A stretch of DNA of 64,000 bases. Origin: Buxus sempervirens (lineage: Eukaryota; Streptophyta; Magnoliopsida; Buxales; Buxaceae). The stretch lies in assembly GCA_947561395.2 (NCBI GenBank), contig OX387192.1:14296221-14360220 (forward strand). Reading direction: 5' to 3'. Shown here piece by piece: positions 961-57,165 of this stretch (positions are counted from its first letter, which is position 1; each line of letters opens with the position of its first letter). A program made the position numbers and the translations under genes. The notes below the pieces were generated by a model. That model was given only the letters and a program-made list of their open reading frames with translations. It was not told the DNA's origin and did no database searches.

Positions 961-3325
961 GATGTGGCTCTCTCCAGTTTCTTTCTCCCAAGCTCTCTTG
1001 ATCTCTCCCACAAGCTCATCCCACCTCTCCATCTCCCAAAACATACCCAAAGCCTCCCCTCTTCTCATCCTCCTTCACTCTTGCTCAAGGAGGACACTTG
1101 AAGAACTTGGTGGAGCAATAAGGTGAGCTCAAGGTGCTGCCCTACTCTCAAGGAGCCTCAACCACACTCAAGGAGGACTTTGAATCACCAAGCATTCTTA
1201 CCATGTATTGTTTAACATAGTTGAAAATGAAGGAGTTAGGAGCATGTTGAGGTAGTTTGATCTCCCTATGCTTTGTTGTTTCTTTACTTGCTGTTTTCTA
1301 CTTTTTTTTTCCCTCTCTTGCACTTCTTCTCCTCTCCATGAGGATGAAATCCTATGGTAATGGAAAGTGAATATGATAGAAATATGGGAGGAGAGATCGA
1401 CCCATGGCGTACAAAGCACACTTTTCCTCCATTTGTTGTTACTTTCAGATTATTGAGGAGAGCATGTTCTCCCCTTCTTTGTATGTCCGATGTACCCTTA
1501 AATCCCCCCTCTCATCCATTCTTTAAAGGCTTTCCATCTAGTACCATATTTGTTTCCCTTATGTGTATTTGGTGCCATGTAGCATGCTTGCCTAGGGTAG
1601 AGTTTTTTAGGTTTTGAATAACATGCTCCCCCATGCCCCCTTCCATGATCCTCCTTGTAGCTACTATTTTAAGTCACTATGTATGATCCCATCCCCCACT
1701 TGCATGCACAAACACGCCCACTCAATCCACTTTTTAGTATGTTGCAAGTCTTGAGTATGTAGGGATGAGTTGCTGTTTTTTAGCATGTGTTTTAAATTAT
1801 TTTCAACATGTATGCTTGTCTTTGCTTGAATATGGTTTGGTTGTTGAGACTTGGAGGAGGACCTTTCGGGTCCCTCACCTATCTTCTCTCATAAAGAAGG
1901 TGAGTAACCCCCACAAACCAGAAAGAGATATCCATGATCTCTTTATGTCACATGGATTCTCGTCCATGAGTGAAGGAGCAAGGCCCCAAGCCTTGCTCAC
2001 TATTGTTTTGATCCAAAAAGTAACAATGATGGCATGTTCCGGCTCAATGCCCTAATCCCAGACCATTGTGGGCCCACTCAAGGGCCTACATAGTCCCTGA
2101 AATCAGAAAACCCAAGCTCCCAACAAAAATTGCAAAAAAAAACAATTTTTTAAACTTGACCGACAACTCAGGTCGGTCAAGCAGGATTTTTAGTGTATCC
2201 GAAATCATATTTTGGATACACTGATTTTTAGTGTATCTGAAACCATATTTTGGATACATTGATTTTTAAGCGTATCTGAAATATAATTTCGGATACACCC
2301 AGAAAATACAAAAAAATGCATATTTTGTTTTCCTTGATAATTTTTAGCCTTTTTTCAATTAAACCAAACCATCCAATAGGGTTTCGGGTCAAACCGAGAT
2401 CTAGCATGGGTCTTGGATCCAACGAGTCCAGCTCAAGAACCGTGGGCCCTCCAATGGGGCCCACCCAGTCCAACTAGCTCATTTGAATTTAAGAAAGATA
2501 ATTAAACAAGTCAAATGGGCCATACCATTCGAGGCCCACCAAAAGCCCAATTTGAAACATGTTGGCTAGGCTAGATGGTTTGGCCGTGACCATGGGCTTG
2601 GGCCTATTGGGCCCAGCTCCCTTCAAGGGAAGCCCACAAACCAAAGGAGGGGATCCATTAGCCCCAACCTGAATGCCTTGGGCTTTCAAGCCCAAACCTA
2701 GGTAATGGGCCCAAGCCCATGCCTAGCCCAATTTGGTACCATTGAACTAAGATAAATCAAAACACTTGGCAACCACTGTGTGGCCCACCCAATGGGCCCA
2801 CAAAACCATCCGGGCCCACCAAGCATAAATCTTAAACTCTTTGGATCAAACCTTAAATAAAATCAACCAAAACCGAAAGGGGTTATCCAATGTAACCCCA
2901 CACGGAACTTGGGCTTCCACTAAAGCCCAAATTGGTATCCGTGGGCCTTCCAACGGGGCCCACACACCAGACCCAGATCACTCAGGTTAAATAAGATAAA
3001 ATCAAGTAAAAAAGGGACCCATACCACTCAGGTGGTCCCGCCAGATTAACCGAACTGTGCATACTTTGACTTAGGAATCGGGTGAGATAGACCAAATTGA
3101 CTTAAACCAGGAAACCCATGGGACCCGTCATCCGACAGGGCGGACCAAGGTGTCTACGGACTTCCCCGGACCATAACCGAGACCTTACTTAGAATCTCAA
3201 GCCGCAGACCGCCTACTAGACAAAACTAGGCACCCAGGTGACGCCTGCACCCCATCAGGCAATGGCGACTCCAACCTTCCTGAATTACCCTTTAGGAGGC
3301 ACGCCCACCCGTGCGACCATGCGCA
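961..3325 (+). mobile_element. Family-1 LTR, copy b, resumed 3' portion
   Basis: The segment resumes near the expected transcript start of the LTR: a CT-rich leader, then a block at 1100-1240 that is nearly identical to 52530-52690 of copy e. It continues through the palindrome cassette (2155-2297) and the GGGCC-rich zone to the conserved end block (GTGTCTACGGACTTCCCC near 3150, GGCGACTCCAAC near 3265) and terminates at GCGCA (3325). The small open frames here have no recognisable domain and are not shared between copies, so I treat them as chance. The upstream half of this LTR should lie left of the window, beyond copy a. Confidence 0.7.
2155..2297. repeat. Palindrome cassette P2 of LTR copy b
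   Basis: Four short palindromes follow one another. The first has arms TTGACCGAC and GTCGGTCAA around the loop aactcag. The next three have arms of the type GTGTATCCGAA and TTTGGATACAC with small variations. Within the cassette the arms are similar, and they differ from those of the other LTR copies. The cassette lies about 1.0 kb before the LTR end, as in copies c, e, f and g. Confidence 0.85.
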
Positions 3326-3703
3326 TAGGTAGTAAACACGCTCCCTTTTCTATAGCTGCATATGCGTTAAATATATCTTCATACACCTACACCTTCTCAT
3401 TAAAGGTATGCTAGGTCATTTGCTTGCTTGCTAGCCAACCTCATCTCTACACACATTAGCACATACACACTTCACTTTTCATGCACATAACCAGTAAAAA
3501 AAAGCATATGCATTTATCATAGTTTGAGAGCTTGCATACTAGGTTTTGTTGATGGATTCGTGTTTGCCTTGTTGGTTTATTGATATGCGGAGTACGAAGA
3601 ACCAAGACACGGACACTCATGTCCCTGTCACATTATAGGAGCATCACGAGAAACCTAGAGACCTTGATCCCTTTGAAAAATCCAGAAAAACCCATTTTGT
3701 GTG

Positions 3704-3888
3704 CTGATCCGACAACTCAGGTCGGATCAACAAAGTCTTGTTTGTAGCCGACTAGGGAGGTCGGCTACATTGTTTTTTATTTGTAGCCGACATCACAGGT
3801 TGGCCACATGTGCTTCAATGTGTAGCCGACATCACAGGTCAGCTACATGTGCTTCAATGTGTAGCCGACAACTCAAGTCAGCTACATT
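3704..3888. repeat. Palindrome cassette P2 of LTR copy c
   Basis: Five palindromes lie in a row. The first has arms TGATCCGAC and GTCGGATCA around loop aactcag. The following four have arms TGTAGCCGAC and GTCGGCTACA, several with one arm base changed (for example GGTTGGCCACA and GTCAGCTACA). The loop of the first palindrome equals that of copy b although the outer arms differ on both sides. Confidence 0.85.
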
Positions 3889-4223
3889 GCAGAAATTTCA
3901 TTTTCTTGTTTTTCTTGTCTTGTGTAATATTCTTGCTCGCTTAATTAAACCAAATGAACCAGTAGGGTTTCTGGGTCACTCGGAAACCCAAAATGGGACT
4001 TGGACATCCCAGTCCAATTTGGTACACAGTGGGCCTTCCAACGGGGCCCACCAAGCCCGGCATACGTTTTTTTTTTTTTGGAAGGTAAGTCCAAAGTGTA
4101 TTAATAAAGAAAAATAAGTACAATATGGTTCAAAACAGAAACAAGAACCCTATTGACAATAGGGTACATGCACATACTAAACCCCACCCCATCACCACGG
4201 GTGAACAACAAGGATATCCTTTG

Positions 4224-6436: not shown

Positions 6437-6620
6437 TATTTATAGAACACAGAGACAAAACTGCACATGCAGTGCGGTTTGGTCGAAACCGCATAGTATG
6501 TGCGGCTTGGTCTAAACCGCATGGTATGTGCGGTTTGGCCACGTCTTTTTAGCATTAAACAGGGGATAAATTGGCGCAAGCGTAGACTGACGAAAAGTCA
6601 ACCGCACTTACAGTGCGGTT
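6437..6620 (-). promoter_or_regulatory. LTR L1 TATA box and palindrome cassette P1
   Basis: On the minus strand TATAAATA occupies 6437-6444. Immediately upstream (6461-6540) lie three repeats built on AACCGCA and TGCGGTT arms, and a further perfect palindrome with arms AACCGCACT and AGTGCGGTT lies at 6600-6620. The position directly before a TATA box is the same as in copies f, g and h. A promoter role is inferred from this position only. Confidence 0.6.
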
Positions 6621-14343: not shown

Positions 14344-14360
14344 TTGATGGGTCAACTTCT

Positions 14361-25299: not shown

Positions 25300-25826
25300 T
25301 GTACCTAAAGTATCTCCCAAGAACACCGAAAGAACCACCCAAGTATCCCTAGAGTACACCCAAGTATTATCCAAAGTACCACCCAAGTACACCCATGCAT
25401 TAGCCAAAGTACCCAAGTACTACCTAAAGCATCCCCTTTTATTACCTAAGGTACCCCACTTGAATGCCTAAAGTACCCCTAGTATTACCTAAGGTACCCC
25501 CTTGTATTGCCTAAGGTACCTCACTTGTGTACCTAAGGTACCCCACTGTTTTACCTAAGGTACCCATTTATTCTGCCTAAGGTACCCCCATTGTTTTACC
25601 TAAGATACACCCCCTTATATAAGTAAGGTATCCCCTTCTATAACTAAGGTACCCCCTCTTATATTACTAAAGTATACCCTCCAAGCATACCTAAAGTATG
25701 CCCCTTGAAATAACTAAGGTAAACTCCCTTGAAACACCAAGGTACCCCTCAAATAACACTAAGGTACCCACTACCTAACACTAAGGTACCCCTCCTTATA
25801 ACACTCAGGTACTCCCTTATAACACT
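25300..25826 (+). repeat. CCTAAGGTACCCC degenerate tandem array
   Basis: More than twenty imperfect units with the core CTAAGGTACCCC and a variable spacer (for example ACCTAAGGTACCCCACTTG) follow each other with a period of roughly 20-28 bp. The array lies in the first piece of LTR H, upstream of its TATA box at 39122. Confidence 0.85.
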
Positions 25827-25837
25827 CAGCTCGGTAG

Positions 25838-31827: not shown

Positions 31828-34800
31828 TTAGATAAAACTACAATTGAGATCCCATTTCTGCATAACCTGCCTATGATAACTGTTATCACTAAGAACTAAT
31901 GGAGTACCTGCCACTCTGTTGTGAATATCTTGGTATATGAACTTACAAATCTCATCTTTAGGCAAAGCAGAGTTCTTAAAAACCCTTCGGTTTCTCTCAC
32001 ACCATATATGATACATAGCCGCAGCCAAGGACAAACGCCTTAGAAGGTGTAAGGGAGATTTAGAGCACCATGCTCGAGCACCATTCTCAACCATGAGGTC
32101 CCAAGAGGGGAGAGGAGTCGTAGTGCTAAGGCCATTCTTGTACATAAGAGCTCTCCAAATATGTGTACTATAGTCACACTGGAAGAAAAGGTGGTCAATG
32201 GTTTCATTACACTTGCGGCAAAGGACACATACCGCATTATGTATGATACCCCACCTGATGACCCTATCCTTAGTAAGGAGAGCTTTCTTGATTGCAAGCC
32301 ATGTCACGAATGAATGCCTGGGAATGTTGGTTGAGTACCAAACCAATCTCGCCCAAGCAATGGGAGACCGACTAGTCTCCAAGGCTTTGTAGGTGCTGCT
32401 GATGCTGTAGATTCCAGTGTGAGAGGGGGTCCAAGTGATCCTGTCGTCCATATCTAGGTTAGGCCTTGGAAGGTCTGGTAACCTCGCCCACACCTCAATC
32501 AAGTCAAATGAAGTAGCTATAGGACTGTCCCAATCAGCATTGGTTAGAAGCTCATGAGCCAAAGCATCATCAGAAAATCCTGAATCATAAATCAATCTCC
32601 TACCATACCTGGGGACCAAAGGGCCAAGAGGATGCCAATTATCGTACCAGATTGAAGTGTTCCTTCCGTTGTTGATTATATGCTTTGTGAACCTGGAAGC
32701 AATATCCCTTTGCCTAAGCGTTTTCCTCCACACCCAAGAAGCCGTGGAGGGGATTGGAACACTCCAAAAATTCCTTCCTCTAAACAGATTGGTAATAACC
32801 CATGATACCCAAAGATTATCTGCCTTGCTTCCCACAAGCCAAGCTTGTCTTAGGACTGCACACTTGTTCCAAAGATGAAGATTCAAGACACCAAGACCAC
32901 CTTTATCAATAGAAGAGCAGACTTGATCCCACTTAATCTTACATATTTTGGCTTCTTGACTAGCTCCAGCCCATAAGAAATGCCTGCAGATTTTCTCCAT
33001 CTTGTATAATACTTCCTTGGGCAAAATATAGACAGACATCCAGAAAACTGCAAGAGAGAACAAGACTGACTTGACCAGCAAAAGGCGTCCTGCATAGGAT
33101 AAAAACCTTCCTTGCCATGACTGGGTCCTAGCAATAAGCCTTTGAATGAGGGGATCACAATCTCTGGCAGTCAGATGAGTAGATATAAGAGGCAATCCTA
33201 AGTACTTCACAGGAATATGCCCTTCATTGAACCCCAAAACCTGCAGTATTTCACTCTTCACATGCTCAGAGATGCCTGACATGAAAACCGCACTCTTCTC
33301 TTTATTGACAGTCAAGCCAGATAACCTGCCAAAGTGGGTGAGGGCAGAAGAAACACATAAGATAGAGTTAATGTCCCCATGAGCGAAGACAAAAAGGTTA
33401 TCTGCAAAGCACAGTTGCTTGATAGAAGGCTGGGAGCATTTGGGATGAGGCCTGAAATTAACAACTGTCTTGTCCTTCAAAACCTTATCAAATAATTCCA
33501 TAACCAAAACAAACAAGTACGGAGAAATAGGGTCTCCTTGTCTAAGGCCCTTGCCCCCTTTGAAGAAGCCCTCCATACTGCCATTAATCATAATCGAATA
33601 GGACGGAGTAGTAACACATTCCATAACCAAGAGATAAACCGAGGAGGGAATCTAAAGCCTTTCAAAACCTTTTCAACACAACTCCAATCAATGGAATCAA
33701 AAGCTCTTTTGATGTCGATCTTAAGAGCACACCTTGGAGTTCCTTTGTTAAGGTGGTAGTTTCTAAACAGTTCATGTGTTATCAAGATATTATCAACCAT
33801 CCTTCGACCAGGTATGAAAGCTGACTGATGCATGCCTACCAAATGTCCCAATACGGCCTTGAATCTATTGGCTAAGATTTTTTAGATGCATTTATATATG
33901 GTGTTGACACATGAGATGGGACGATAATCAGAGATCATGGAAGGCTTACCTTTTTTTGGAACAAGGCTGATGCTAGAGTGGTTCACCTGCTTGAGTAACT
34001 TCCCAGATGAGAAGAAAGATTTAATGGCCGTCGTGACATCTTTCCCGACTATATCCCAAGCCTTCTTAAAGAAACCCGAGGTAAAGCCATCAGGACCTGG
34101 AGCCTTCTCATCCTTGAGCACAAACATTGTTGACTTAATCTCTTCATCAGTGATATCTGATTGTAACACTTGAATTTGATCAGGGGCCAAGAAGTTGTCA
34201 AACTCAACTTCAAAGGGATCCAGAGACCCATCCCCTCCACCCAACAAATTACAGTAATGGGAGACAATATGCTGCTTTATCTGAACTTGGTCCGAGATTT
34301 CTCTTCCATTGGTGTCATTCAACTTGGTAATGGAATTGTGAGATCTTCTGAACATCATGGAGTTAAAGAAGAATTTAGAGTTTTGATCACCCTCCTTCAT
34401 CCATTGTATTCTAGATTTCTGCTTGTATTGGGCTTCCTCAACTCTTAATAGTTCTGCAAGGTCTCTTCTCAACTTCCCTTCTATGGTAGGCAAGTGGGGG
34501 TCTGCAGGATTAACTTGTAATGCCTTCTGACAATGCTCCAGTTTGCCCCTAACTTCAATGGCTTTGACAGTAGCAAGAGAGAATTCTTTCTTCATGCTCC
34601 ACTCTTTCAAGCGTACTTTGAGGATCTTGAGTTTGGAAGTAAGCTGGAACATGGGCTTGCCTACAATTGAGACCCTCCACACATCAGCAACCAAAGGAAG
34701 AAAGTCTTCACTCGTGGCCCAAAAGTTAAAAAACTTAAATGGTCTATTGAGCTTCAGCACTTCAGGTTCAAGTGTGACCAAAACGGGACTGTGATCAGAG

Positions 34801-40010: not shown

Positions 40011-43000
40011 GTTATTCACCCTTTTATTCCCCAACCCTTTCCCCAAACAACTTAAGCCTCCCACACAGCAAGCACCCTTATTATTAAATGAAAGACATTT
40101 AAGTAAATGTCCTGTGTATTTATTGATCAATTTACTTTAAGTCTTTACATGTAAATAAGTTTTTACCCCCCATTTGGAACCAATAAAAATACTCCCAAGG
40201 CGCAATTCCCAACCAATAAAAAATCAACTTTCTAGTTCATGCCTAAATTTCCAGTTTTTTCGATTTCCATCAAAGACCACTTTTGAGTTTGATACCCAAA
40301 TGAGTGATTCAAAAGCCCATAAAATTCTAGAAAAGTTGTTTACCCTCAATTAGACTATAACCAAAAATTGAGCCTAAAACTCCTCGTGGATTTGTCTAGA
40401 AAATTATATACCCAAAAGTCAATGTTTTTAATTAGACTTGGAAGATTTTTGAGGACCGAAACTTTTTGTCACATAATCCATTGATTTTTGGTATGGTGAC
40501 CCTATTGGGGATCCTAGGACTATCCCACCCATCGAATATGTAAATTGTGGAATTTATTGCTATTTTTTTGCTTGATGTGGGCTTGTCAAAGATACGGTTG
40601 AGATCTCTTATGTGGTTGACCGAGCAACACGGCCTGGATTTAGATGTATTTTGTGAACTTGATGGTATGTGTATTTTACTTTAATTTGGATTTGGATGTG
40701 AAGTGATTGAGTAGTCCCACTTGGCAATGACGGTGTAGATCTCACTCGATCGTGGTGGACTGGCAGTGATTGTGTAGATCTCACTTGCCCTTTTGTTGAA
40801 TGCAAGAGAAGGTTTAGATCTCACTTGGTTTGGTTTAAGCACTAGTTTCACTCATTGATTTGATTGGTTTGTTTTGAATTGTGAGTCGTCTAAGTGGACG
40901 TTGATCTTAGTGTGGGTCTATAGTGAGTCTAGTCTGTGTGTTAGTGTTGGCTTGGTTTGTGCATTGAGTACTCTCTCTTGGTTTGCGGAATGAGGCATTG
41001 GTTCTAGTAATCGATGCAAAAGGTTTGTTTTACATTATGAGTTCTACCAAAATATACTTGTAGTAAATGATTGGGTCTATCGGGCTAATTTCATGTGTTA
41101 TACTATTTAGATGCTTTGACTTGAGAGTATAAATTGCATGACCTACTTTTATTCATGATGTTATATGAATTCCCTAAACTGCTTCTATACATGATGTTAT
41201 ATGAATTGCATAAACTGCTTCTGTTTATGCATGTTTGCTACTTACTAGGACTTTAAGTCTTACGCGTTCTGTTTTACCGGATTTGTTTTCAGATCCGCTT
41301 GGTGAGCCACGCACTGGGGCAGATAGTGAGGGTGAGCTTGAGCGCAGGCCTGAGGACTTCTACTATCCATATTAGGGTTCTCTTCATGTTATTGTATTTA
41401 GTTTAGAAACTATATATGGGATGTAATTATTCTTTTGGGATTTGTAGACTTAGAGTTAACTTTAGATTATCATTTTTGTATATGAATGCTCATGTGAGAG
41501 ATAGTAATGGAGAGGTCTAAGTTGCCTTTTTGTACCTATAGATATTATCTTTTGGAGTTATACACAGATGTCCTTTTATTATATGGAAAATCTTAATTCC
41601 ATGCTTCTTTATCTTATGCACTCTAATGATTACATTGTAATTGCTCACGTTAATTGTGTTTATCAGGTTCTTTTGGGTCCATAAGTAGGTCCCGGGTACG
41701 GGTTGGTGCCGTGATAGGGCAGACCCGGATCTGGGGCACTACATGAAATGCCTGCAAATCCTTTCCATCTTATAGATTACCTCCTTAGGCAGTATGTACA
41801 CAAACATCCAATTTACGGTAATGGCAAACAGTACTGTTTTAACCAATATCAATCAACCTGCGTATGATAGAAACCTACCTCTCCAGGAGGCCTTTCGAGC
41901 TATCAACTTCTGCGACAACGGCTCGCACTCATGTGCTGTAAGACGAGACCAAATAAGTGGTAACCCCAAGTATCTAACAAGTACAGAGCCTTCCTTGAAC
42001 CCCAACACCTGGACAATTTCATTCTTGACTTGATCATTGATACCAGCCATGTACACCTCACTCTTATCAATATTAACCATAAGCCCCGGTATCCTTTCAA
42101 ACTACCGCAACACCCCAGATATACACTATACTGACCTTACATCTCCATGCGAAAACACGAGAAAATCATCTATGAAACACATTTGCTTGACCACCAGTTG
42201 TGTGCATTTGGGGTGAAGGCAAAAGTTTTCCGCCATGTAGTCCTTTAAGATTGCGTCAAACACTTCCATTACAAGGACGAACAAATACGGTGATATTGGG
42301 TCGCCTTTGTGCACGCGACGGAATGAACGCCGCACTGCGAGGCACACGGATTCATGCGTGCCTCCGGGAGGGTAAAATGGGAATGTTGGAGTTGCCACAG
42401 CCTGTTGGGGTGTAGGTGGAAACCTGGGTGCCAAAGTTTGTCTATTGGGCTGGTCTGCGGCTTGAGATTCTAGGTAGGGCTCGGTTGCGGTCTGGGGAAG
42501 TCCATAGACAGCCCGGTCCACCCCGTCGGTTGACGGGTCCCATGGTTCTCCTGGTTTTGAGTCAACTCACTGATTTCTCACCCGATTCCTAATCCAGCAT
42601 GCAACTGAGTTAAGTCTGGCGGGACCACCTGAGTGGTGTTGGTCCCTTTAATTGCTTTTATCTTGCTCAATTAAGTGGTCTAAGTCTAATTGGGTGGACC
42701 CCGTTGGAAGGCCCACAAATACCTTGGTGGGCTTGGTTAAGCCCACATGTCCCTTGGTGGGCCTCCATCTAAGCCTGTGAGGCCCTTTGGGCTTTGGTGA
42801 GTTTGATTGATTTTACTTATGGTTCAGTTTGGATGTTTTAAGTGATTTTTCATGCAAAGTGGGTCGGGATTGGTGTGTGGGCCCATTGGGCAGGCCCACA
42901 GTGGTAGCCGAGTGATTTATTTGAATTTATCTTCTTTAGGTTTCCAAAGTGGGCTAGGCCTTGGGCTTGGGGCCCTTTAGTCTAGACTTGGACCGGATGG

Positions 43001-43389
43001 TCCATGATTTAGTGGATCAAGGTGCTGGACCCTACCCAGTTGGGTTGATGGGCTTATTGGGCCCGATAGGCCCGCACCCACAGTCACGGCCAAACCATTC
43101 CTATGCTAAGCCTGCATACTTCATTTTCATTGGGCTTTGATGGGCCTCGTAGGGTTTGGCCCATTTAGTTTATTTTAATTATCTTGTTTTATTTTTAAAA
43201 AGTGATCTTGGGCTAGGTGGGCCCTGTTGGAAGGCCCACAAAGGAATCAAATTGGGCTTAAAAGCCTATGTCCCATTTTGGGTTTCCGGTTGACTCGGAA
43301 ACCCTTTTGGTTAACCCGGTTCGGCTTCAGCAACACAACTAATCAGTAAACATCAAAAATCAAGTTTTTTATTAAATTTTCAAAGTAAC

Positions 43390-43535
43390 CGAAATTTCAT
43401 TTCGGTCAAACCTGGAACACAGTATAACCGAAAATACATTTCGGTTATACTGTGTTTCTAGCTTAACCGAAATTAAATTTCGGTTAAGCCAGAAAAAACA
43501 CATAACCGACTTGAGTTTTCAGTCAACCTGCGGAA
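43390..43535. repeat. Palindrome cassette P2 of LTR g
   Basis: Palindromes with arms AACCGAAAT and ATTTCGGTT follow one another (AACCGAAATTTCATTTCGGT, ATAACCGAAAA...TTTCGGTTAT, TTAACCGAAATT...AATTTCGGTTAA), plus one decayed unit with CCGACTTGAGT. The arms are the same as in cassette P1 of this LTR, 1.3 kb away. Confidence 0.85.
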
Positions 43536-44828
43536 ATTCATTTTATAACTTTTTTAGCAGAAAACCAATCCCTAAGGCTTGTGGACATGTATAAGGCCTA
43601 CGTGGGCCCTCGTGTGGGCCCACAGTGGTTCAAATGCGGCCATTTGGCTCTTCTTTTTAGGGTCTTTCAAAATCAAACACAAAGGGGAATCAAAGGGTTT
43701 ATCCCCCTTTCACACACCGAAGCAAAGATCAAACAGGGATTTGGGTATCCCTTGTTTGGTTTTCTTTATTCTAAAAACACCCATCCTAGCTATAAATGGA
43801 CTAAATCAAACCAAAGTGACCACAATAGGCATGCTTCCAATCAAAGCTAAGGTGAACACGATAATACACGACTAAGAGCAATTAAGAGTTGGAAAACACT
43901 TTTTTTTTCTGCACTCACAACTTAATGAAAACAGCTTTCTAAAACATGTCTTTAGCACATGGAAACACATGCAAGCATATAGGGATATACATGCAAAGGG
44001 GTTCGGCTTCTCATGATCACAAAACAGTGACTAAAAGGTGATTAAAACCTCGATTAGAATACATGGAAACAGTTGCAAAAGGATGCGATTATATAACCCT
44101 AACAAGAGGATATTATGCATTCATGTGATAGCAACTAGGCATGCATCTCATGTATTTTATCATGTCAACATCATCTCACAAAACCTAGCGAAATAACATG
44201 TAAAGGAGGGAAGAGGAAGAGGGCTTACTTAAGGGATACATTAGAAGGCACATACAAGAGGAACATGCCCCTCTTTTTTATGAAAAGGAGACAAGCAAAA
44301 CAGTGGCGGAATGGTGGTTGCATGACCCCTTCAAAACCCACCAAACTACCTTCCATACCCTCTTTTACCAACCAAATACCTTACCTTTCTTGCCATGTAG
44401 GAATAATCACTCTTAAAAGAGCCTAAGAGAGATTATCGGGGATAGAATGCATGCTTAAATCGAGGGAAACAACACATATTCATAGAGAAAGAAATCAATG
44501 TACTTTGATCATGCTCATTTTAAGATATGTTACATAAAAAATGGTGAGGAGGCTTACCTTAAAGTCAAAAACCTCCTAGGATGGTGTTGGAACCCACTTG
44601 AGATACCCACAGCACTTGAGCTCCTTTCCAACTCCAGCAAGTCCTCCAAAGGTCTCCTTCCAAGTGTTAGGAATGAAGAAGAAGGGGGAGGAAGGGGCTT
44701 AGGGTAGTAAGATTAGGATTTTTGGTGTAAAAAGAGGTTGGAGAGGGTAGAGAAGGGAGGTACAAGCAGGGTGGGGTGGGGGAAAATTTCGGCAAGCAGC
44801 AACCTTCAGCCAAATGGCTAGGGTTGCT

Positions 44829-44836
44829 ATTTATAG
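44829..44836 (-). promoter_or_regulatory. TATA box of LTR g
   Basis: TATAAATA on the minus strand lies 14 bp downstream of palindrome cassette P1. Transcription would run toward lower coordinates through R/U5. Confidence 0.55.
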
Positions 44837-44849
44837 ACAAAATTAAAGT

Positions 44850-45029
44850 AACCGAAATTGATTTTCGGTTACACTGCTTTTTAGTATAACGGAAAATCAA
44901 TTTCGGTTATACCAATTTTGTTTGTAACTGAAAATCAATTTCGGTTGCACTGCTCTTTAGTATAACCGAAAATCAATTTCGGTTATACAAAATTTGTTTG
45001 TAACCGAAATTGAATTTCGGTTACTTTTG
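44850..45029. repeat. Palindrome cassette P1 of LTR g
   Basis: Five palindromes sit in tandem with arms TAACCGAAA and TTTCGGTTA (centres near 44862, 44895, 44937, 44970 and 45012), spacing about 33-40 bp. Single arm changes are few (AACGGAAAA, AACTGAAAA). The cassette ends just upstream of the TATA box. Confidence 0.88.
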
Positions 45030-46027
45030 GATATTCACAGATTACCCCCTGAGATATTTATCTGCGTTTCTTGCCACGTGTGCAGTTCCTTCGCCCCGTG
45101 TGCAGTTTCCAGCATTGCTGTCCGGAAACTTCCACTGCTCATATCTTCTTCATCCGGACTCCGATTTGAGCAAAATTAGTTGCGTTAGAACCGTATCGGA
45201 GTCCTATATTCATTTGGGTAGGGTTAAGCACTTGATTCGGGGTTTAGCAGAAAGTCAATTTCTGCTCCCCCTCAAGTTTGACCAGCCTATAAATCCTTCA
45301 TCCAGGCTCCGATTCTAGCAAACTCAGTTGCGTTAGAACCGTGTTGAGATTCTCTATCCACTGAGATAAATCAAGGTGGTCAATTATCACTTGATCAAAA
45401 AGTCAATTTTTGCCCACTTAAGGTTTGAGTTTCCAGCTAGGGTTTGCATTTCCGGCACTTCTGGGTGTGCAAAAATGAGGTGCTTACAGCCTTGTCTTAA
45501 ACCCTTTTGACACTTGAAAACCCTCCATACTACCATTAACCATGACCAAGAAAGCTGTGGTAGTTACACACTCCATTATCCATCTAGTAAAGTTTTATGG
45601 AAACTGAAAGCCTCTCAGCACCTCTTCCAAACATCTCCAATCTATTGAGTCATAGGCCTTTCGTATATCAACCTTAAGAGCACACCTAGGAAGTGGTAAT
45701 TCTTAAACAATTCATGTGTGATGAGTATGTTGTCAACCATCCTTCGTCCAGGTATAAATGCCAACTGGTACTGCCCAACCAAATCACCCACCACCTTTTT
45801 GAGTCAATTAGCTATGATCATCGAGACACACTTGTATATCGTATTAACACATGAAATAGGGTGAAACTCATTGATTCTAGAAGTTTTACCTCCCTTGGGC
45901 ACCAACGTAATTATGGAGTGGTTCACCTATTCAGTAGCTTCCCTGTGGAGAAGAAGCTTCTAATGGCAGCAGGAACTTCCTTTCCTACCACTTCCTTCCC
46001 TACCACACACTTGTGGACTTAAGACTT

Positions 46028-46239
46028 AATCATTGATATTATCCCCATCTTATGCTTTGGAATCCACAATTCTGTGTATTATTTGTTGTTTTTGTATGCA
46101 GATTGAAATGTAACAACCAAATTCAGATCTCCATGGACAGACCATAATAAATAAGTTATGAGATATTATAATTAAGCAATCGCAACTCATCTCTTAGCTT
46201 GTTCACTGGAAGGAAACAATGAGATAGCTGGCAGTGCTT
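46028..46239. other. Possible unique DNA between LINE-g and LINE-k
   Basis: This is the right-hand continuation of 22361-23764. No gene, repeat or LTR end was recognised. The 3' boundary is set by the first LINE-k residues and is uncertain by about 10 bp. Confidence 0.45.
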
Positions 46240-48213
46240 TTTCATCCCACCTACTGTTGTGGCTTGGATCATGGAATGCATTACAACCCCGGCCTTCTCA
46301 ATCATGATCAATGGCAGCCTTTGTGGTTTCTTTAAGGGTGCTGTTGGTCTTCGCCAAGGTGACCCTATGTCACCCTACTTGTTTGTGCTGGTCATGGAGG
46401 TATTCAACATGGTGCTAAAGGAGAATACTAGGCAAGGTTTTACCTACCATCAGAGATGTGAAGCCATTGATCTCAAACTACTGTGCTTTGCTGATGACTT
46501 GTTCATTTTCTCCAAAGCTGACAACTCTTCCATTCTATGTATCATTGCTGCTCTCCAGGAGTTCCAGCATCTAACTAGCTTATGTGTCAACAAAAGCAAG
46601 AGTTCTATGTTTTTAAGTGGGGTGGATCAGGCTAAGAGAGCTGAACTGAGCTTGTTGTCTGGGTTTCCTTTGGGTGAACTGCCGGTTAAGTACCTCGGTA
46701 TTCCGCTTATTACGTCAAAACTCACATGGAGGGACTGCCTACCACTTATTGAACAAGTCAAATCTAGGACTCAAGCTTGGAAAGGAAGGAGCCTTTCGTA
46801 TGCGGGCAGGCTTCTACTCATTAAATCTGTGCTATTTTCCATCAAGGTACACTGGCTAACCACTTTTATTATTCCTAAAGGTGTTCTTACGGAATTGGAA
46901 AGGATCTCAAGGAGGTTCTTATGGTTGGGTCCAGAGCTCAAGAGGAAAATGACACCAATTAGTTGGGACATTGTGTGTAGATCATGTGAGGAAGGGGGGT
47001 TGGGTTTGTTCAGGTTGAGCCTTTGGAACAAAGCTGCAGTTATGAAGCATGTATGGAAAATTTTAAGCTTTAGTGAATCCTTGTGGGTACAATGGGTGCA
47101 TAAGTACCTTGTGAAGGATCGGAACTTCTGGATCATAAATATACTAGCATGTTGTTCTTGGGCATGGCGAAAGATACTTAAGACAAGATCAGACGTGCAC
47201 CAACGTGTGAAGAAGAAGATAATGAATGGTTGCACTACTTCACTATGGTATGACAACTGGCATCCGGATGGTCCATTGTTCATTACCTATGGAGCTCGTT
47301 TGATATATGATTCCGGCCTTCCTTCTAGTGCCAAGGTGAGTGATATCATTTCAGGTAACAATTGGGATCCTCCAGTGGCAGCTTCATTTAACCTTAGAGA
47401 GGTATGGAGCAAACTTCACCAACTTGGTAACCCAAATTCGGACAGTGAGGACGTGATGATATGGACTCCTTCTAAGACAGGTGTGTTTGATATTAGTAGC
47501 ACATATAAGAGTATCGATACATTGCATGTGCAAGTCCATTGGTGTAGATTGGTTTGGTTCCCTCAACACATACCAAAGCATGCTTTCTTGATATGGTTGG
47601 CTATTAATCGAAGGTTACTCACCAAGGACCGGCTTCACAAGTTAGGTGTTGTTGACCAAGCAACATGTGTGCTGTGTAGATTCACGGTCGAGTCTCACTC
47701 ACACCTATTCTTTGATTGTCAGTATAGTGCCCAGATTTGGTCCCACATCCTCTCCTTGAATTGTGTAAGTCGAGTTCGACGGGACTGGGAGGAGACTGTC
47801 CAATGGGCGTCATCATTGCAGTTGGGTAGTGCACACTCTCGAATGATATTCAAGGTATCATTAGCAGCCACAGTTTACCACATTTGGAGAGAAAGGAACC
47901 GTCGTGTATTTAGTAATTCATACTTACCATGGCAGAACCTGGTTCAAGCAATTACATCGGACGTTCGTGATAAAGCCAACCTTGAGAGGGTGAAGCTCCA
48001 AGACACTCCTCTCCATCGTCATTTAGTGTATAATTGGGGTTTGAATTGGGAGTTCATACCCTAGTAAAGGTCACCTTTGCTGTTCTCCCGTGGGTTGGGA
48101 TGGTTTTGTATGTTCTTGTACCCTATCACTAGGGTTCTTATTTCTGTTTTGAACCATATTGTACCTATTTTTCTTTATTATTACACTTTGGACTTACCTT
48201 CCAAAAAAAAAAA
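46240..48213 (+). mobile_element. 5'-truncated LINE (LINE-k), well preserved
   Basis: The element starts in the middle of the RT and ends GGACTTACCTTCC plus A-run (48203-48213). It is closely similar to LINE-a and LINE-i. No TSD could be assigned: the 3' flank is cut after 13 bp by LTR h at 48227. The uninterrupted frame suggests relatively recent insertion or recent activity of the subfamily. Confidence 0.88.
46241..48064 (+). CDS. LINE-k ORF2 fragment, intact RT core to C-terminus
   Basis: About 600 codons are open without interruption: WIMECITTPAFSIMINGS, GLRQGDPMSPYLF, catalytic FADDLFIF, PVKYLGIPLITSK, LSYAGRLLLIKSVLFSIKV, RRFLWLGPELKRKM, SWAWRKILK, LWYDNWHPDGPLF, the zinc cluster CVLCRFTVESHSHLFFDC, VYHIWRERNRRVF and the end NWGLNWEFIP. 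No methionine marks the start; the frame is simply open at the truncation. Without the endonuclease, the N-terminal RT motifs and ORF1 it cannot mobilise itself, but the RT active site and zf-RVT appear undamaged. Confidence 0.87.
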   Translation, partial: FIPPTVVAWIMECITTPAFSIMINGSLCGFFKGAVGLRQGDPMSPYLFVLVMEVFNMVLKENTRQGFTYHQRCEAIDLKLLCFADDLFIFSKADNSSILCIIAALQEFQHLTSLCVNKSKSSMFLSGVDQAKRAELSLLSGFPLGELPVKYLGIPLITSKLTWRDCLPLIEQVKSRTQAWKGRSLSYAGRLLLIKSVLFSIKVHWLTTFIIPKGVLTELERISRRFLWLGPELKRKMTPISWDIVCRSCEEGGLGLFRLSLWNKAAVMKHVWKILSFSESLWVQWVHKYLVKDRNFWIINILACCSWAWRKILKTRSDVHQRVKKKIMNGCTTSLWYDNWHPDGPLFITYGARLIYDSGLPSSAKVSDIISGNNWDPPVAASFNLREVWSKLHQLGNPNSDSEDVMIWTPSKTGVFDISSTYKSIDTLHVQVHWCRLVWFPQHIPKHAFLIWLAINRRLLTKDRLHKLGVVDQATCVLCRFTVESHSHLFFDCQYSAQIWSHILSLNCVSRVRRDWEETVQWASSLQLGSAHSRMIFKVSLAATVYHIWRERNRRVFSNSYLPWQNLVQAITSDVRDKANLERVKLQDTPLHRHLVYNWGLNWEFIP

Positions 48214-49014: not shown

Positions 49015-49050
49015 AGTGCGGTCCGAACCGCTTTGTGTATGCGGTTCCGG
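49015..49050. repeat. Palindrome cassette P2 of LTR h
   Basis: AGTGCGGTCCGAACCGC and TGTATGCGGTTCCGG share GCGGT/ACCGC arms. It is a short, partly decayed cassette, but its arms match P1 of the same LTR at 57083-57165. Confidence 0.6.
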
Positions 49051-50069
49051 CCTAGGAAGCCCAAAAGGCGATTCTCATGGGGGGTCTAAGAGTCCCTTCC
49101 CTAGGGACTTTTACGAACTGTTGTGGGTCTCTAAGCAGACCCACAGTGGCTTCTACATGCCCTTTTCGGCCAGAAATGCCATTTTCCAATGGATTCTTAA
49201 AGTGGGAAGAATCCCTACTCTTGGACAGCCATTAGAGCCTTGGAACAGGGACTCTAGAAGTCCCTGTTTGGTGTCATAAATGGTCTCCTCCTTTCCCCTA
49301 TGAGAGAAAGAGAAGGAAGGCTCGGAAGGCCAAGACCAAATCCCATTCGATCAACTCATTCACATATTCATTCAAACCATATAAGCAAGCACAGAAGCAA
49401 ACAACCAGGGTGAACATGCACGAAAACAAACATTTAAGAACCTTACAAAAACAGTATATGAAAGTGGGATATTGAGAGAATCTAATCATGCTTCAAGGAT
49501 ATGGTTTGTATGTGTATAATTGTAAGCACCTCATTTTTTATCAAGTAAAAATCCTGAGGGGCAAAAGTTGACTTTTTGATCAAGTACAAATCCACCATCA
49601 TACTTCTTCCCTATGATTAGGAAATTCTGACACGATCCTAACGCAACCGAGTTTGCTCAGACTGGGGTCCGAATGAAGAAGTTATGAGCCGATCAAACTT
49701 GAGGGGGTAGAAATTGACTTTTTGATAAACCCCAGATTAACTACTTAACCCTGTCCCAGTGGACAGAGGACTCCGATACGGTTCTAACGCAATTGAGCTT
49801 GCTAGAATCGGAGCCTAGATGGAAAAGATATGAACAGTTCAAGTTCTAGGGCAGCATTGCTAAAATTTGCCCACGTGGCAAATAGAGCAAACTGCAGATA
49901 AAAATATCTGGGGGCAAATCCGTAAATAGCAGAAAATTCAAAAATATCTGGGGGCATATTTGAAATTATTTGGTGGAAATCTGTGAATATCAAAAGATCA
50001 TAAAATATCTAAGGGCAAATCTGCAAATAACCAGGGGTAAATCGGCAAATATCAGAAATTTACCTTTTT

Positions 50070-50313
50070 GTATCCGATATAATATGTCGGATATGCATAT
50101 TTCCATTTGTATCCGACATATAATTTTGGATACAAAAGATTTTTTCTGAGAGTCTGTGAGATTCTTCGAAAGACTCTCTGCAAAAAATTAATTTTTAAAA
50201 TGATTATGTTTGTATCTGACATATTATGTCGGATAAAAAGGAACCTTGGTGTATCTGACCATGTACTGTGTACCTGACCTATGTGTTTGGATACAAAAAG
50301 TCATCTATAAAAA
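50070..50313 (+). promoter_or_regulatory. LTR f palindrome cassette P1 and TATA box
   Basis: Palindromes with arms GTATCCGACAT and ATGTCGGATAC (variants GTATCCGATAT, GTATCTGACAT, TTTTGGATAC) occupy 50070-50294. TATAAAAA follows at 50306-50313, 11 bp after the last arm. A small degenerate direct repeat (CTGGGGGCAAATCTG type) precedes the cassette at 49910-50050. Confidence 0.65.
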
Positions 50314-51834: not shown

Positions 51835-52040
51835 GTCTCAGGGATTAAATCTGCAATTATCCAAGTCAATGTAAATATCTCAAGGACTGAATCTGTAGAT
51901 ATCCAGGAGTATCAAGGACTAGATCCATAAATATCCAAAGTTGAGAAAATATCGCAGGGACCAAATCTGTAAATATCCAAAAGTATCAGGGACCAAATCT
52001 GTAAATATCCCAAGTATCAGGGACCAATCCACAAATATCA
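51835..52040 (+). repeat. GGGACCAAATCTGTAAATATCC degenerate array
   Basis: Six or so units of about 32 bp with core GGGACCAAATCTGTAAATAT and decayed variants are visible. It occupies the position where copies f and g have their first palindrome units. Confidence 0.75.
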
Positions 52041-52054
52041 AGATTTGCTCATGA

Positions 52055-52290
52055 TTGATGTCTCCTATGGGCATGCATGGGCATCATCCATGCATGCAAC
52101 ACCTCATACATCTCTCTCTCTCTCTCTCTCTCTCTCCCCCCATGATCATCCATGCATGCATCTTTCTCTCTCTCTCATAATTGATGTTTCCCATGTGCAT
52201 GCATGTGCATCATCAATGCATACACCATGCAAACATCTCATCTCTCTCTCTCTCTCTCCCCCACCCATGCATGCATGCATATCACATGCA
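52055..52290 (+). repeat. CATGCATG palindromes and (CT)n microsatellites
   Basis: GGGCATGCATGGGCATCATC-type blocks occur three to four times, alternating with (CT)n runs at about 52110-52136, 52163-52178 and 52240-52258. CATGCATG is a perfect palindrome. This zone directly precedes the TATA box of LTR e and so takes the place of P1, with unrelated arm sequence. Confidence 0.8.
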
Positions 52291-52299
52291 TTACCCCAT

Positions 52300-52306
52300 T
52301 ATAAAG
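52300..52306 (+). promoter_or_regulatory. TATA box of LTR e
   Basis: TATAAAG is followed by a CT-rich leader. The aligned leader is where LTR copy b resumes at 961. Confidence 0.5.
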
Positions 52307-53671
52307 CCCCCATCCCACCCCATACGTATGGGAGAACTCTCATTTGTTGCTCATCTCTCCCACAACTCCCATTCTTCTCCCATTCTCTCCAACCTCTCTC
52401 CCCCATCTCTCTCATCTCCTAAGCTAATCCCACCTCTCCAACACTCTCAAACCATTCCCAAACACACCAAAAAATCCCTCTCTCAAGTCCCTTCTTTTCC
52501 CTTCCTCTCTACTTGGAGACCAAGGAATATACTTGAAGAGCTTGGTGGAGCAATAAGGTGAGCTCAAGGTGCTGCCCTACTCTCAAGGAGCTTCAACCAC
52601 ACTCAAGGAGGACTTTCAATCACTAAGGTAAGCATTCTTACCATGTATTGTTTAACATAGTTGGAGATGAAGGGGTTATGAGCATGTTGAGGTAGTTGCT
52701 TTTCCGTATGCCTTGTTGTTTCTTTACTTGCTGTTCTCTATTTTTTTTTCCTCTCTTCCACTTCTTCTCCACTCCATGAGGACGAAATCCGATGGTAAGG
52801 GGAGATGACTACGATAGAAAGGTGGGAGGAGAGCCCGACCCGCGGCGTATAAAGAGTCTTTTAATCACATTTTTCCTCCATTTTTGTTACTTTCAGATTA
52901 TTGAGGAGAGTATGTTCTCCCCTTTTCGCATGTCCGATGTACCCTTAAATCCCCCCTCTCATCCTTTCTTTAAAGGTTTTCCATCTAGTGCCATATTTTC
53001 TTCTCTTATGTATATTTGGTGCCATGAAGCATGCTTGCCTAGGGTAGAGTCTTTTTTATGCTTTGGATAATATGCTCCCCATATCCCCTTCCATGATCCC
53101 CCTCATAGCTACCGTTTTAAGTCACTTTGCATGCATCCTATCCCTCTTTACATACACCAATGCACACACATGAGTATGGCACCAATAAAAGGCATGATAG
53201 TTCCCCTTTGTTTTATCCTACTCGCACGCATGAGAACCCACACACACTCATCCTTTTTGTCTGCTGTTCTAGCATGTTTGCTACCTCATTTGGCATGTCC
53301 TTACATGTTGGTTTAGTTGCTTGATTAATGCATGTACGAATGGTTTGGTCATAGACTGGTACATGTGCCATTCGGGCCCTTCCCCTTGCTATCCTTAGGG
53401 AGAGGAGGAGGTGTACATGGCACAAGAACAGGGATACCCTAGGCCCCTGTTCCAGGGCTTGATTTCCAACTCAAGAAGAAGGAGGGAGGCCCCCAAGTCT
53501 CAACCTCCTTCTCTTTCGGTTCAAAAATCACCAAGGGTGGCCAAACAAGGCCATTCCCTTAATTTTGTACCACTGTGGGCCCACAAAGGGGCCCACACAG
53601 GCCTTATCAAGCCCTAGAAGCCCACAGGAGCCACCCCCATTGCAAAATCCCCGAAAAGTGCCATTCAAGAG

Positions 53672-53777
53672 TGATCCGACAACTCAGGCCGAATCACCTT
53701 GAATGTGTGTGTAGCCGACCTTCATGGTCGGCTACATTAAAGCTTGTGTGTAGCTGACCATGATGGCCGGCTACATG
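53672..53777. repeat. Palindrome cassette P2 of LTR e
   Basis: There are three units: TGATCCGAC/GGCCGAATCA around aactca, then GTGTAGCCGACC/GGTCGGCTACAT and TGTAGCTGACC/GGCCGGCTACAT. The arms resemble copies c and f. Confidence 0.85.
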
Positions 53778-55071
53778 GCAAAAATGCCAGTTTTGGTATT
53801 TTCTTGATTGTTGTTGCATTTCCATGATGTTTTCCATCAAACTTGATGAACCAATAGGGTTTTTGGATCACCCGGAAACCCAACATGGGACTTGGACCAC
53901 TGGTTCAACCGGATGCATAGTGGGCCTTCCAACGGGGCCCACCAAGCCCAATAAACCTTTGTGCATGTAATTAAGCAACTTAAGCAATCAATTGAATCCG
54001 GCGGGCCAAACCCGATGCGGCCCACCCGGGAATTTGTTTTGTAACATGATGAATTAACTTAGCATGGTTTGGCTGAGACCAAGGGCTAGGGCCTACCGGG
54101 CCCGCCAAGCCCACTAACTGAACCAAGTAAGGGTTTAAACCCTAACTTCAAGGAACTTGGGCTTTCAAGCCCAAATTTGAACTATGAGCCCCAAATTTGG
54201 GCTTTATCTTTGATATAATGTTCCAGCCCACTTTGGAACATTATATCAAAGATAAAGTAATAATACTTTGCAACACTTGTGTGGCCCACCCTGGGGTTGG
54301 CAAACCAATGCAAGCCCACCTTTTGCATGGAACTCACTTAATCTTCAAATCTGAACCTTAAAGTAAAATCAATACACTTAACCAAAGCCCAAAGGGCCTC
54401 CCAGGCCTAGACAAAGGCCCACCAGGGGATATGTGGGCTTAACTAAGCCCACCAAGGAGACCATGGGCCTTCCAACGGGGCCCACCCAATCAGACTCAGA
54501 CCACTTAAATAAACAAGATAAAATCAAATTAAGGGGACCCACACCACTCAGGTTGTCCCACCAGACTTAACCAAGTTGCATGTTGGATTAGGAATCGGGT
54601 GAGAACCAAAAGCGAGCTGACTAAAACCTAGGAGAACTCTATGGGACCCGTCAACCGACGAGGTGGACCGAGGTGTCTACGGACTTCCCCGGACTGCAAC
54701 TGAGGCCCAACTTAGAATCTCAAGCCGCAGACCAGCCTTATTAGACAAACTTAGGCACCTAGGCGTTCGCCTGCACCCCATCAGGCGGTGGAGACTCCAA
54801 AATTTACCCTTTTACCCATCTCGGAGGCACTCATGAAAGTTCGTGCGCCCCGTCGTGCGATTTCACCGCGCACAGCCTGCATGTGCATCATGGTTCAAAA
54901 GCATGTATGTTAGGCTTGGTTTATTGCTTTTCCTTGTCTTGTTTGTTTGCTATTATGTGGAAGATGAAGAACCGAGACAAGGGCACTTAGGTCCTTGTTC
55001 CACTGCTGAAACACCCCTAGGAGCCCAGTAGCCCAAGCCCATTGTAGAAACCCGAAAAACCCTCCTTTTGA

Positions 55072-55217
55072 GCTGATCCGACAACTCAGGTCGGATCAGC
55101 AGAAGTTTGCTTGTAGCCAACCAAGGTAGTCGGCTACACTTGTTTCTATGTGTAGCCGACATCTTAGGTCAGCTACATATGATTTTGTGTGTAGCCGACA
55201 ACTTAAATCGGCTACAC
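55072..55217. repeat. Palindrome cassette P2 of LTR f
   Basis: The first unit has arms GCTGATCCGAC and GTCGGATCAGC around aactcag. Three further units have TGTAGCCGAC and GTCGGCTACA arms with single changes (GTAGCCAAC, GTCAGCTAC, AATCGGCTAC). Confidence 0.87.
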
Positions 55218-57062
55218 TGTAGAAATTTCAATTTCTGGATTTTTCATGCTTTGTGTCATTTTTTTGCTCTCTTGATCAAACCAAATGAACCAATAGGGTT
55301 TCTGAGTTACCCAGAAACCCAAAGTGGGACTCAGACTTCCCAGTCTAATTTGATTCACTCGTGTGCCTTCCAACGGGGCCCGCCAAGCCCAAACAAACCA
55401 CTTGGAGGTAAATAAGATAATTAAGTCAATTGAGTAGGCCACACCGTTTGAGGCCCACCCAAAGCCCAATTTTGAAGCATGCCGCCTTAGACTAGGTATG
55501 GTTTTGCCGAGACCGCGGGGCAGGGCCTATCAGACCCACTAAGCCCATTGAACCAAGCAAGGGTAGGGGTCCAACACCCTAACCCAAGAAGCCTTGGGCT
55601 TTCAAGCCCAAGCCTAGGTAATGGGCCCCAAGCTTGTGCCTAGCCCATTTTGGCACAGATTAATTAAGATAATTCGAAAACACTTGGCCACTATTGTAAA
55701 GCCCACCTAAGGGGCCCACAAACCTTTCAGGCTCACTTCTGCATAAAGTTTAACTTAATTTCCAAACTGGAACCCTAAATAAAAGAAGTTAACTTTGCCA
55801 AAACCCAAAGGGCCTCTCAGGTTTAGACTGAGGCCCACCAAGGGACATGTGGGCTAGGTTAGTCCACATAGGAATCCGTGGGCCTTCCAACGAGGCCCAC
55901 CCAATCAGACTTAGGTCACTTCAATAAATCTAAGATAAAATCAAAATAAAGGGGACCCACACCATTCAGATGGTCCTAACCAGACCCAATGAAATGTGCA
56001 TGCTAGTTTAGGAATCGGGTGAGTTTAGATTGAATTGACTCATAACCAGGAAGACCAATGGGACCCATCAACCGACGAGGCTGATCGGGGTGTCTACGGA
56101 CTTCCCTGGACCATAACCGAGACCTTAACCAAAATCTCAAGCCGCAGGCCAACCTACTAGACAAACTTAGGCACCGAGGTGTCTGCCTGCACCCCATCAA
56201 GCAGTGGCGACTCCAACAAGTGAGTGAAATATGCCATAAGTGGGACTGTCTACTGGTAATCATGGTGGCAAAAATGATGAAATGGGTTCATGTACACCTC
56301 CTAACATATTATTCATGCCTACATGAAGGGATTTTCCCTTTGCCCATGAGGTGAACCAAAATAGTAGACAAGGAGGTGAGTGTCCACGCCTGTGGTATTT
56401 TTTCTCATACTTCAAGGTCACCCAAGGAGACCAAATTATCACATGAGCATGCATGCACGTAGCGAAGCAAAATAAAAACATTCAGTGAGAAGGGAATGGG
56501 GGGAAATTTAAGGGGTACAACGGAGATGAGAAGGAGGATAGACCCTCCTCGTAAATGTAACAACAAAATAAAGTAAAAAAAAAAAATTTTGCTTGGGGAA
56601 CATCCTTCACCCTTATGGACAAAGCTCTCCTCCCATCCTTCGAATGGGATCCTCCCCTTACCATGGAGGATCCTATGGCACGAAAGTGAAGAAAACAAAG
56701 AGGGAAACATAATGGAAGGAAGGCTTGAAGTTGCCTAGGACATGGACATGATCATAATACTCTCATTCTTATATATGTGAAACAAAAGTTAATGAAAAAC
56801 TCACCTAGGTGTAGGGAGACATCCCTGACACTGTGTGCTAGCTCCTTGAGGTTAGAACAATAGTTGAAGCAACACCTTTCAACCAGCAAGCTCCTTTGCA
56901 CTTGGGTTGAAGAGGAAAGGGTGGGGAAGGTGTTTGAGAGGATTGAAGTAGGTGTGAGGGCTTGGGAAGGGGAGAAGGGAGTAGTTTTGAGGTTCAGGAG
57001 GTTGAGGAGAGTAAGGAAGAACAGTTAAAACTGACCAGCCCTTGTCCCACGTTCGAATTTGC

Positions 57063-57165
57063 CTTTTATAGAACACAGAGACCAAACCGCACTTACTATG
57101 CGGTTTGGTCAAAACCGCACATATTGTGTGGTTTTGCCATGCCCGCACATACTATGCGGTTGAGT
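57063..57165 (-). promoter_or_regulatory. LTR h TATA box and palindrome cassette P1
   Basis: TATAAAAG on the minus strand (57063-57070) is followed upstream by three palindromes with arms AACCGCAC and GCGGTTTG (57083-57165). A further CACTTACAGTGCGG unit lies near 57231. The arms equal those of LTR L1 and of P2 in the left piece of LTR h. Confidence 0.62.

Follow-up and report, generated by a model that had tools for sequence, protein, structure and literature searches.

What kind of feature keeps a palindrome intact while its letters change? The question is raised by a 64,000-nucleotide stretch of the Buxus sempervirens genome (contig OX387192.1, positions 14,296,221 to 14,360,220; hereafter the window), in which the long terminal repeats (LTRs) of a retrotransposon carry clusters of palindromes, here called cassettes, at two places named P1 and P2. 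An earlier note on this DNA had listed ten such cassettes and had proposed that selection or a copying mechanism maintains the palindrome as its sequence turns over. We scanned the window for palindromes, dissected the anatomy of its LTRs and sought related LTR stretches and spaced patterns in the same 676.5-Mb genome. In the reading that we favour, with a probability of roughly 60%, the cassettes are arrays of dyad sites through which a putative DNA-binding protein controls the LTR promoter in a Tat/Ogre-like Ty3/gypsy family.

The palindromes are real and far above chance. With a local score of 9 or more as the threshold, 42 were found in the window, against 1, 2 and 4 in three shuffles preserving local dinucleotide content; nine of the ten listed cassettes hold at least one of them, and the arm pairs quoted for them are present in the sequence. 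Tandem Repeats Finder reports arrays with a period of 38-39 bp (2185-2298, 3782-3887, 44848-45024 and 55128-55218) or 28 bp (6472-6538 and 57084-57161), which coincide with six of the ten cassettes. In place of the three to five tandem units claimed per cassette, 49015-49050 has one clear dyad. Nor does the assignment of all cassettes to a single LTR family seem to hold: judged by eye, two kinds of LTR seem present, long ones of about 3.1-3.7 kb with both P1 and P2, and a shorter kind (at 6461 and 57083) in which P1 alone was seen. From LTR loci fetched from the same genome (L001, which is the window site 2155-2297, L002 and so on) we took 88 cassette stretches (59 P2 and 29 P1), which together contain 203 palindromic units; 144 of these units have both CCG and CGG intact. 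In a sample of 16 stretches located upstream of primer-site junctions and chosen without regard to palindromes, 12 show clear CCG palindromes at the P1 or P2 place; each of these stretches covers part of the LTR only, so that P1 or P2 may fall outside, and one (L055) is offset by 700 bases.

What the units have in common is a geometry. A CCGA...TCGG core had been described for most of them, whereas the true constant is CCG followed, after exactly 11 bases, by CGG (CCG-N11-CGG), the AACCGCAC and GCCCGTA types being devoid of CCGA. When the gap is varied from 0 to 40 bases, the window contains 23 occurrences at 11 and between 0 and 8 at any other value, and 19 of the 23 start inside, or at most five bases before, the listed cassettes, which make up 1,410 of the 64,000 bases. 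In 62 fetched loci, 244 occurrences have the gap of 11, and the runner-up spacing has 65. Amongst the intact units, the gap is 11 in 140 of 144, that is, in all 88 from P2 and in 52 of 56 from P1 (the exceptions being three gaps of 10 and one of 17). Free-spacing patterns were also searched genome-wide, with the reversed pattern as control and with spacings tallied from the matches listed only. The TGTATCCG pattern (gaps of 5-13 allowed) gave 23,910 sites against 3 in the control, and a gap of 11 in 68 of 68 matches listed. For the TAACCG, GCCCGT and TAGCCG patterns, the gap was 11 in 46, 47 and 47, respectively, of 50 matches listed, with genome totals of 3,258, 15,068 and 1,714 and reversed controls (693, 3,829 and 308) that are not negligible. 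The units also recur at regular steps: 55 of 75 intervals between P2 units measure 38-40 bp and 17 measure 77-79 or 117 bp (others: 30, 35 and 59), while 23 of 46 intervals between P1 units measure 38-39 bp; a 28-bp step occurs in the GCCCGTA and AACCGCA types.

Around this frame, the arms turn over on both sides. In 247 distinct CCG-N11-CGG sites (37 bases each), the base that precedes CCG can pair with its counterpart in 73% of cases, compared to 29% with shuffled partners, and the first and second bases after CCG are paired in 81% and 73% (39% shuffled for both), which supports the proposal that the palindrome persists while its letters change. The symmetry fades outward, to 43% versus 34% at the sixth base, and inward, to 48% versus 35% at the third base, none at the fourth and 41% versus 30% at the fifth; control spacings are mostly without flank symmetry. 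The two-sided change of the outer arms noticed in the lead P2 unit is confirmed and extends across the genome. The fixed core and loop of that unit, CCGACAACTCAGGTCGG, occur at 1,035 genomic sites (control 0), and the outer arms at the 100 sites listed fall into four matched classes: TTGTAT/ATACAA (71 sites), ACTGAT/ATCAGT (3), AGTGAT/ATCACT (3) and CATTAA with TTAAAT or TTAAAG (3 sites, in which 4-5 of the six pairs match). The remaining 20 depart from a class in one arm, and none of the 100 joins arms of two unlike classes, AGTGAT/ATCAGT being perhaps a hybrid of two close ones. In 45 distinct sites of the TGTATCCG pattern, the first and second inner pairs covary (36 and 31 matches versus 28.0 and 18.7 with shuffling), with no covariation at inner pairs three to five. 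Mean pairwise identity in P2 of the TAACCGAA subfamily (18 rows, L033 dropped) is 0.86 for the arms, 0.70 for the spacer and 0.44 for the loop; the loop AACTCA is common to several arm types. Arms had been described as nearly uniform within a cassette, which is only partially so: arms of TTGACC or GATCC set the lead P2 unit apart from its followers, which have TATCC or TAGCC. Of the two outcomes that had been set against the proposal, independent arms are not observed, and a mixture of arm types inside single cassettes is observed in part.

The two cassette places differ in their relation to the promoter. A TATAAA(A/T) box lies 12-17 bases from the end of P1 in all four P1 cassettes named earlier (50306, 44835, 6444 and 57070). 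P1 was found in 28 of 59 fetched stretches, one of which (L020) is probably spurious. In the 25 fetched P1 arrays with an exact dyad, the last dyad ends 15-18 bases before the TATA box in 12 and 15-54 bases before it in 20, distances that are selected, because calling P1 required a unit at most 45 bases from the box. P2 occurs downstream of the TATA box, 1-1.7 kb beyond P1, and is followed after about 80 bases by a GGGTTTCC...GGAAACCC hairpin, the TATA-to-hairpin distance being 1,081-1,794 bases in ten LTRs; given this position and the order of the LTR, P2 is expected in the transcribed leader. The hairpin itself, GGGTTTCC-GGGTCAnC-GGAAACCC, is found in many long LTR copies, in the window at 43280-43304 and 55296-55320. 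Some long LTRs carry at the P1 place a CATGCATG array without CCG (e.g., at 52071-52097).

P1 and P2 words were compared in 26 LTR copies with both arrays readable, words being assigned partly by eye. Loci without both arrays readable were dropped, as were L036, L037, L046 and L060 (ambiguous) and L013 and L021 (P1 place interrupted). The two words are the same in 14 copies (ten TAACCGAA and four TATCCGG), and in four others both are CCGAC with unlike bases before it. As the other eight differ, the idea of an obligatory common word is rejected; sharing is real in two subfamilies and is no rule. The 26 copies represent few independent lineages, because most were picked by similarity to LTRs of the window, and one pair (window 50070 with 55072) assumes that another LTR is nested between its members.

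The carrier LTR starts with TGTAAGCACCTC and ends with ...GCGCACA, and its end, followed by three bases and the primer site TGGCGACTCCACTNGGGA, occurs at 680 junctions in the genome (control 0). For 12 of 22 junctions listed on C1 below 21.5 Mb, the reverse transcriptase motif DDFPLPHID is found on the same strand 9.0-14.5 kb downstream, against 1 on the opposite strand, 2 upstream and a random mean of 0.7. The frame with this motif matches RVT_1 and RT_RNaseH_2 (in L018), and we take it to be a gypsy-type reverse transcriptase. Other frames near the LTRs match RVT_1, RT_RNaseH_2, RVT_3, G-patch and Retrotrans_gag, several of which seem to be part of elements hosting an inserted LTR; the RVT_3 domain in L016 lies within sequence into which the LTR seems inserted. 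The L012 element contains, about 7.5 kb from its start, a gag-like frame with no Pfam match. In the available part of its description, the Tat (Ogre-like) clade of Ty3/gypsy is characterised by a second, archaeal-type RNase H domain (PMC6317226). The reverse transcriptase motif and the domain matches fit the clade as described there. The family looks like Ty3/gypsy of Tat/Ogre type, which has long LTRs (about 3.1 kb at 42331-45488), large noncoding regions and a gypsy-type reverse transcriptase, as found here; the motif and the RVT_1 and RT_RNaseH_2 matches do not fit the SIRE lineage of Ty1/copia.

The family is very large: three 1-kb LTR queries returned 10,869, 9,833 and 9,866 first-look candidates, the best 40 being scored per search, and many fetched copies look, by eye, like solo or broken LTRs. 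In the window, an insertion resembling a solo LTR, from 51272 to about 54887, is apparently nested in an LTR of the same kind starting at 49521, and a similar self-nesting is likely near 1-3340. One P2 word, with a TTGACC lead and TATCCGAAA followers, precedes three lineages of downstream block, in L002, in L003, L004, L006 and L008, and in the window at 2155-3275; in a tree of 52 downstream blocks, loci with the TATCCGAAA word are likewise placed on three block backgrounds, which recombination between cassettes and blocks may explain, as may a nested LTR downstream. The string TGGCGACTCC, like the start of the primer site, stands about 65 bases before the LTR's own end (56205-56214; 918-927 is a near copy). 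In the long LTRs, the conserved 3′ block (1-925, 2376-3270, 42384-43312, 53854-54796 and 55288-56218) is rich in GGGCCCACC-like words, which presumably resemble TCP/site II promoter words; GGNCCCAC occurs 34 times on both strands over the whole window, a count without control.

In the favoured reading, a sequence-specific and probably dimeric protein would bind each dyad. A site pairs the half-site xxCCGyy with its reverse complement at a fixed distance of 11 bases, and sites recur at steps of 38-39 bp (28 bp for two of the types). P1 would place such sites just upstream of the TATA box, where it is observed, and P2 would offer sites of this kind again 1-1.7 kb downstream, in sequence that is probably transcribed, judging from the TATA box and LTR order. 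Tandem duplication would have spread the units in an array, as their period and similarity suggest, and the arrays might act as enhancers or anti-silencing sites. With the geometry constrained, the flanks of the half-sites would diversify by subfamily, either because each active lineage tracks its own shifting binder or because the flanks tune affinity.

A number of observations weigh against this. The other 23 of the 46 P1 intervals are scattered from 26 to 182, and the constant spacing could in part reflect shared descent without insertions or deletions. In the same loci, gaps of 7 (outer 62%, 27 sites) and 8 (inner 78%, 36 sites) are also partly symmetric. Arms of the TAACCGAA subfamily are only a little above the downstream flank in identity (0.86 versus 0.81), and conservation in its CCG and CGG columns is lower than in the other arm columns (0.81 versus 0.88), for which CpG decay after insertion would account. 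Of the eight LTRs with differing words, five have CATGCATG at P1, with no CCG dyads, two AACCGCA and one GCCCGTA. In the junction-based sample, no such array appears in L058, L061 and L064, at their partial LTR coverage, and the two units of L050 are weak. Several arms reach 18-21 bp, beyond what a protein dyad needs, and the arrays have a strong folding potential, albeit in stretches picked for palindromes. The search for a binding protein with Zn_clus was empty, as was its control, and is uninformative; amongst the literature matches listed on the spaced triplet and on LOB-domain sites, there was no plant binder.

Long arms and folding are what an RNA function would predict, the transcript having to fold for dimerisation, packaging or strand transfer, or the arrays templating hairpin-derived small RNAs. 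The folding check proposed in the earlier note gave a median z of -8.2 for the 59 P2 and -8.5 for the 29 P1 stretches, compared to -2.3 for 102 control windows; P1 and P2 do fold strongly, yet any stretch selected for palindromes would do so. Shared words could pair, since the genomic RNA would have P1 in its 3′ end and P2 in its leader, and palindromes of maize Sireviruses attract small RNAs, according to the part of the source at hand (PMC10760457). A hairpin would, however, leave the length of its loop free, and here the CCG-CGG gap is all but invariant around hypervariable loops. Nor are G-U pairs preferred: P2 has 27 G-U against 23 A-C mismatches (and 43 others), P1 10 against 17 (and 25 others). 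Neither the G-U tolerance nor the free loop length of an RNA element was found; Rfam gave no match in the window at gathering scores. The lack of G-U bias, together with the fixed spacing, favours a protein-bound DNA dyad, and we consider an RNA role unlikely.

The units' likeness inside arrays, their tandem periods of 28, 38 and 39 bp and the mosaic pairing of a P2 word with the downstream block of L002 would also follow if template switching, palindromic repair or conversion between arms kept the arms identical without selection. Such copying predicts neither a fixed CCG triplet nor a fixed 11-base gap across all arm types, and the one-arm departures at 20 of the 100 listed CCGACAACTCAGGTCGG sites (one possibly hybrid) mean that no repair of one arm by the other after insertion is visible. 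Of the two causes first proposed, selection is thus the one favoured by the fixed spacing, namely selection for a protein-bound DNA dyad, and copying appears quite improbable. A passive history, in which an ancestral palindromic tandem repeat diverged by point mutation and has no present function, would suit the many solo or broken copies and the recurrence of the AACTCA loop in several arm types. It is, to our mind, very improbable, as constraint in active lineages is needed to explain both why arm classes differ on the two sides at matching positions and why arms exceed loop or spacer in identity.

The arrays of dyad sites are distributed in the window as follows. On the forward strand, P2 arrays occupy 2155-2297 (a TTGACCGAC-type lead with TATCCGAAA-type followers, period 38-39, exact CCG-N11-CGG at 2160) and, each with a GATCCGAC lead and TAGCCGAC units, 3704-3888 (period 39; dyads at 3709 and 3748), 53672-53777 (53715) and 55072-55217 (period 39; 55078 and 55195). 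On the reverse strand, they occupy 43390-43535 (TAACCGAAA type, 39-bp steps; 43389, 43428 and 43467) and, weakly, 49015-49050 (AACCGC type; 49028). The P1 array at 50070-50294 (TATCCGAC type; dyad at 50074) is on the forward strand, beside a TATA box, TATAAAAA, at 50306-50313. The other three are on the reverse strand, with TATA boxes recognised, likewise, by sequence: 6461-6620 (shorter LTR kind, AACCGCA type, period 28; 6489, 6517 and 6602) beside TATAAATA at 6437-6444, 44850-45029 (TAACCGAAA type, period 38 (76); 44852, 44966 and 45004) beside TATAAATA at 44828-44835, and 57083-57165 (AACCGCA type, period 28; 57087 and 57143) beside TATAAAAG at 57063-57070. Self-comparison delimits a long LTR with matched P1 and P2 arrays on the reverse strand (42331-45488), whose 5′ end, TGTAAGCACCTC, is at 45488 and whose limit at 42331 is approximate. 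The CATGCATG palindrome at 52071-52097 (forward strand, palindrome scan) occupies the P1 place of a long LTR without a CCG dyad, with TATAAAGC at 52300-52307. That 49015-49050 and 57083-57165 belong to one interrupted LTR was considered and not proven.

Beyond the LTRs, the window contains long reverse transcriptase frames of LINE type (long interspersed nuclear element) (RVT_1 and zf-RVT) at 46223-48064 on the forward and 31828-33651 on the reverse strand, with similar-looking frames elsewhere. Two other tandem arrays lie at 25303-25826, where the 22-bp repeat is like CCTAAGGTACCCC, and at 62002-62770, where the repeat is complex and like GGAGACACCTTGCTCC.

The earlier note knew of no named element feature that matches, which is wrong. 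In the available part of Bousios et al. 2010 (PMC2829016), Sirevirus (Ty1/copia) LTRs are described as having, before the TATA box, palindromic repeated motifs marked by a CGG-CCG signature, and that survey calls the motif Sirevirus-specific. The cassettes are a feature of this known kind in another superfamily and with a fixed geometry. As far as the available part of the survey goes, the likeness extends to palindrome clusters upstream of the TATA box (all four P1 cassettes named earlier), to the signature, here in the order CCG...CGG, to one word per element that differs amongst elements, to a proposed cis-regulatory role and to a second cluster elsewhere, before env in Sireviruses and in the LTR downstream of the TATA box here. 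By the same partial account, the differences are the superfamily, Tat-like Ty3/gypsy instead of Ty1/copia; the gap, 11 in all words here and variable amongst elements in Sireviruses; and the 28-, 38- or 39-bp steps and the presence of several words in one genome and one broad family. Amongst the literature matches listed, which are from the open literature, many subscription papers being outside it, there was no report of such arrays in Ty3/gypsy or Tat LTRs. Arrays with so rigid a geometry in an apparently unrelated superfamily point to a recurrent design.

The spacing also calls to mind Gal4-type zinc-cluster sites, CGG-N11-CCG spellings of which occur in fungal papers, in the portions available. 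Both have two CGG/CCG triplets 11 bases apart, and the order is reversed here, CCG-N11-CGG. Gal4-type zinc-cluster proteins are not known from plants. CCG-N11-CGG with a 38-39-bp step provides a testable specification for finding the binding protein, and several words per genome allow a test of coevolution between retrotransposon promoters and regulators or host silencing.

For the possible way of working, the best parallel may be the target arrays of VANC in VANDAL DNA transposons. These are noncoding, as the accessible part of the source has it (PMC5735166), and consist of a short word in tandem that a sequence-specific protein recognises. As there, a short word is gained and changed together between subgroups; VANDALs, in contrast, are DNA transposons, the accessible text lacks the string "palindrom", and an element-encoded binder is only putative in Buxus sempervirens. 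By this analogy, one might tentatively suppose that subfamilies with private half-site alphabets (TAACCGAA, TAGCCGAC, TATCCGGC, TGCCCGTA, AAACCGCA and others) on an invariant CCG-N11-CGG in promoter and leader have an element-encoded or host dimeric regulator whose specificity shifts in step, a possibility that we regard as doubtful. If true, an LTR retrotransposon would have a recognition code like that of VANC, and a single genome would offer tens of thousands of natural variants of the site.

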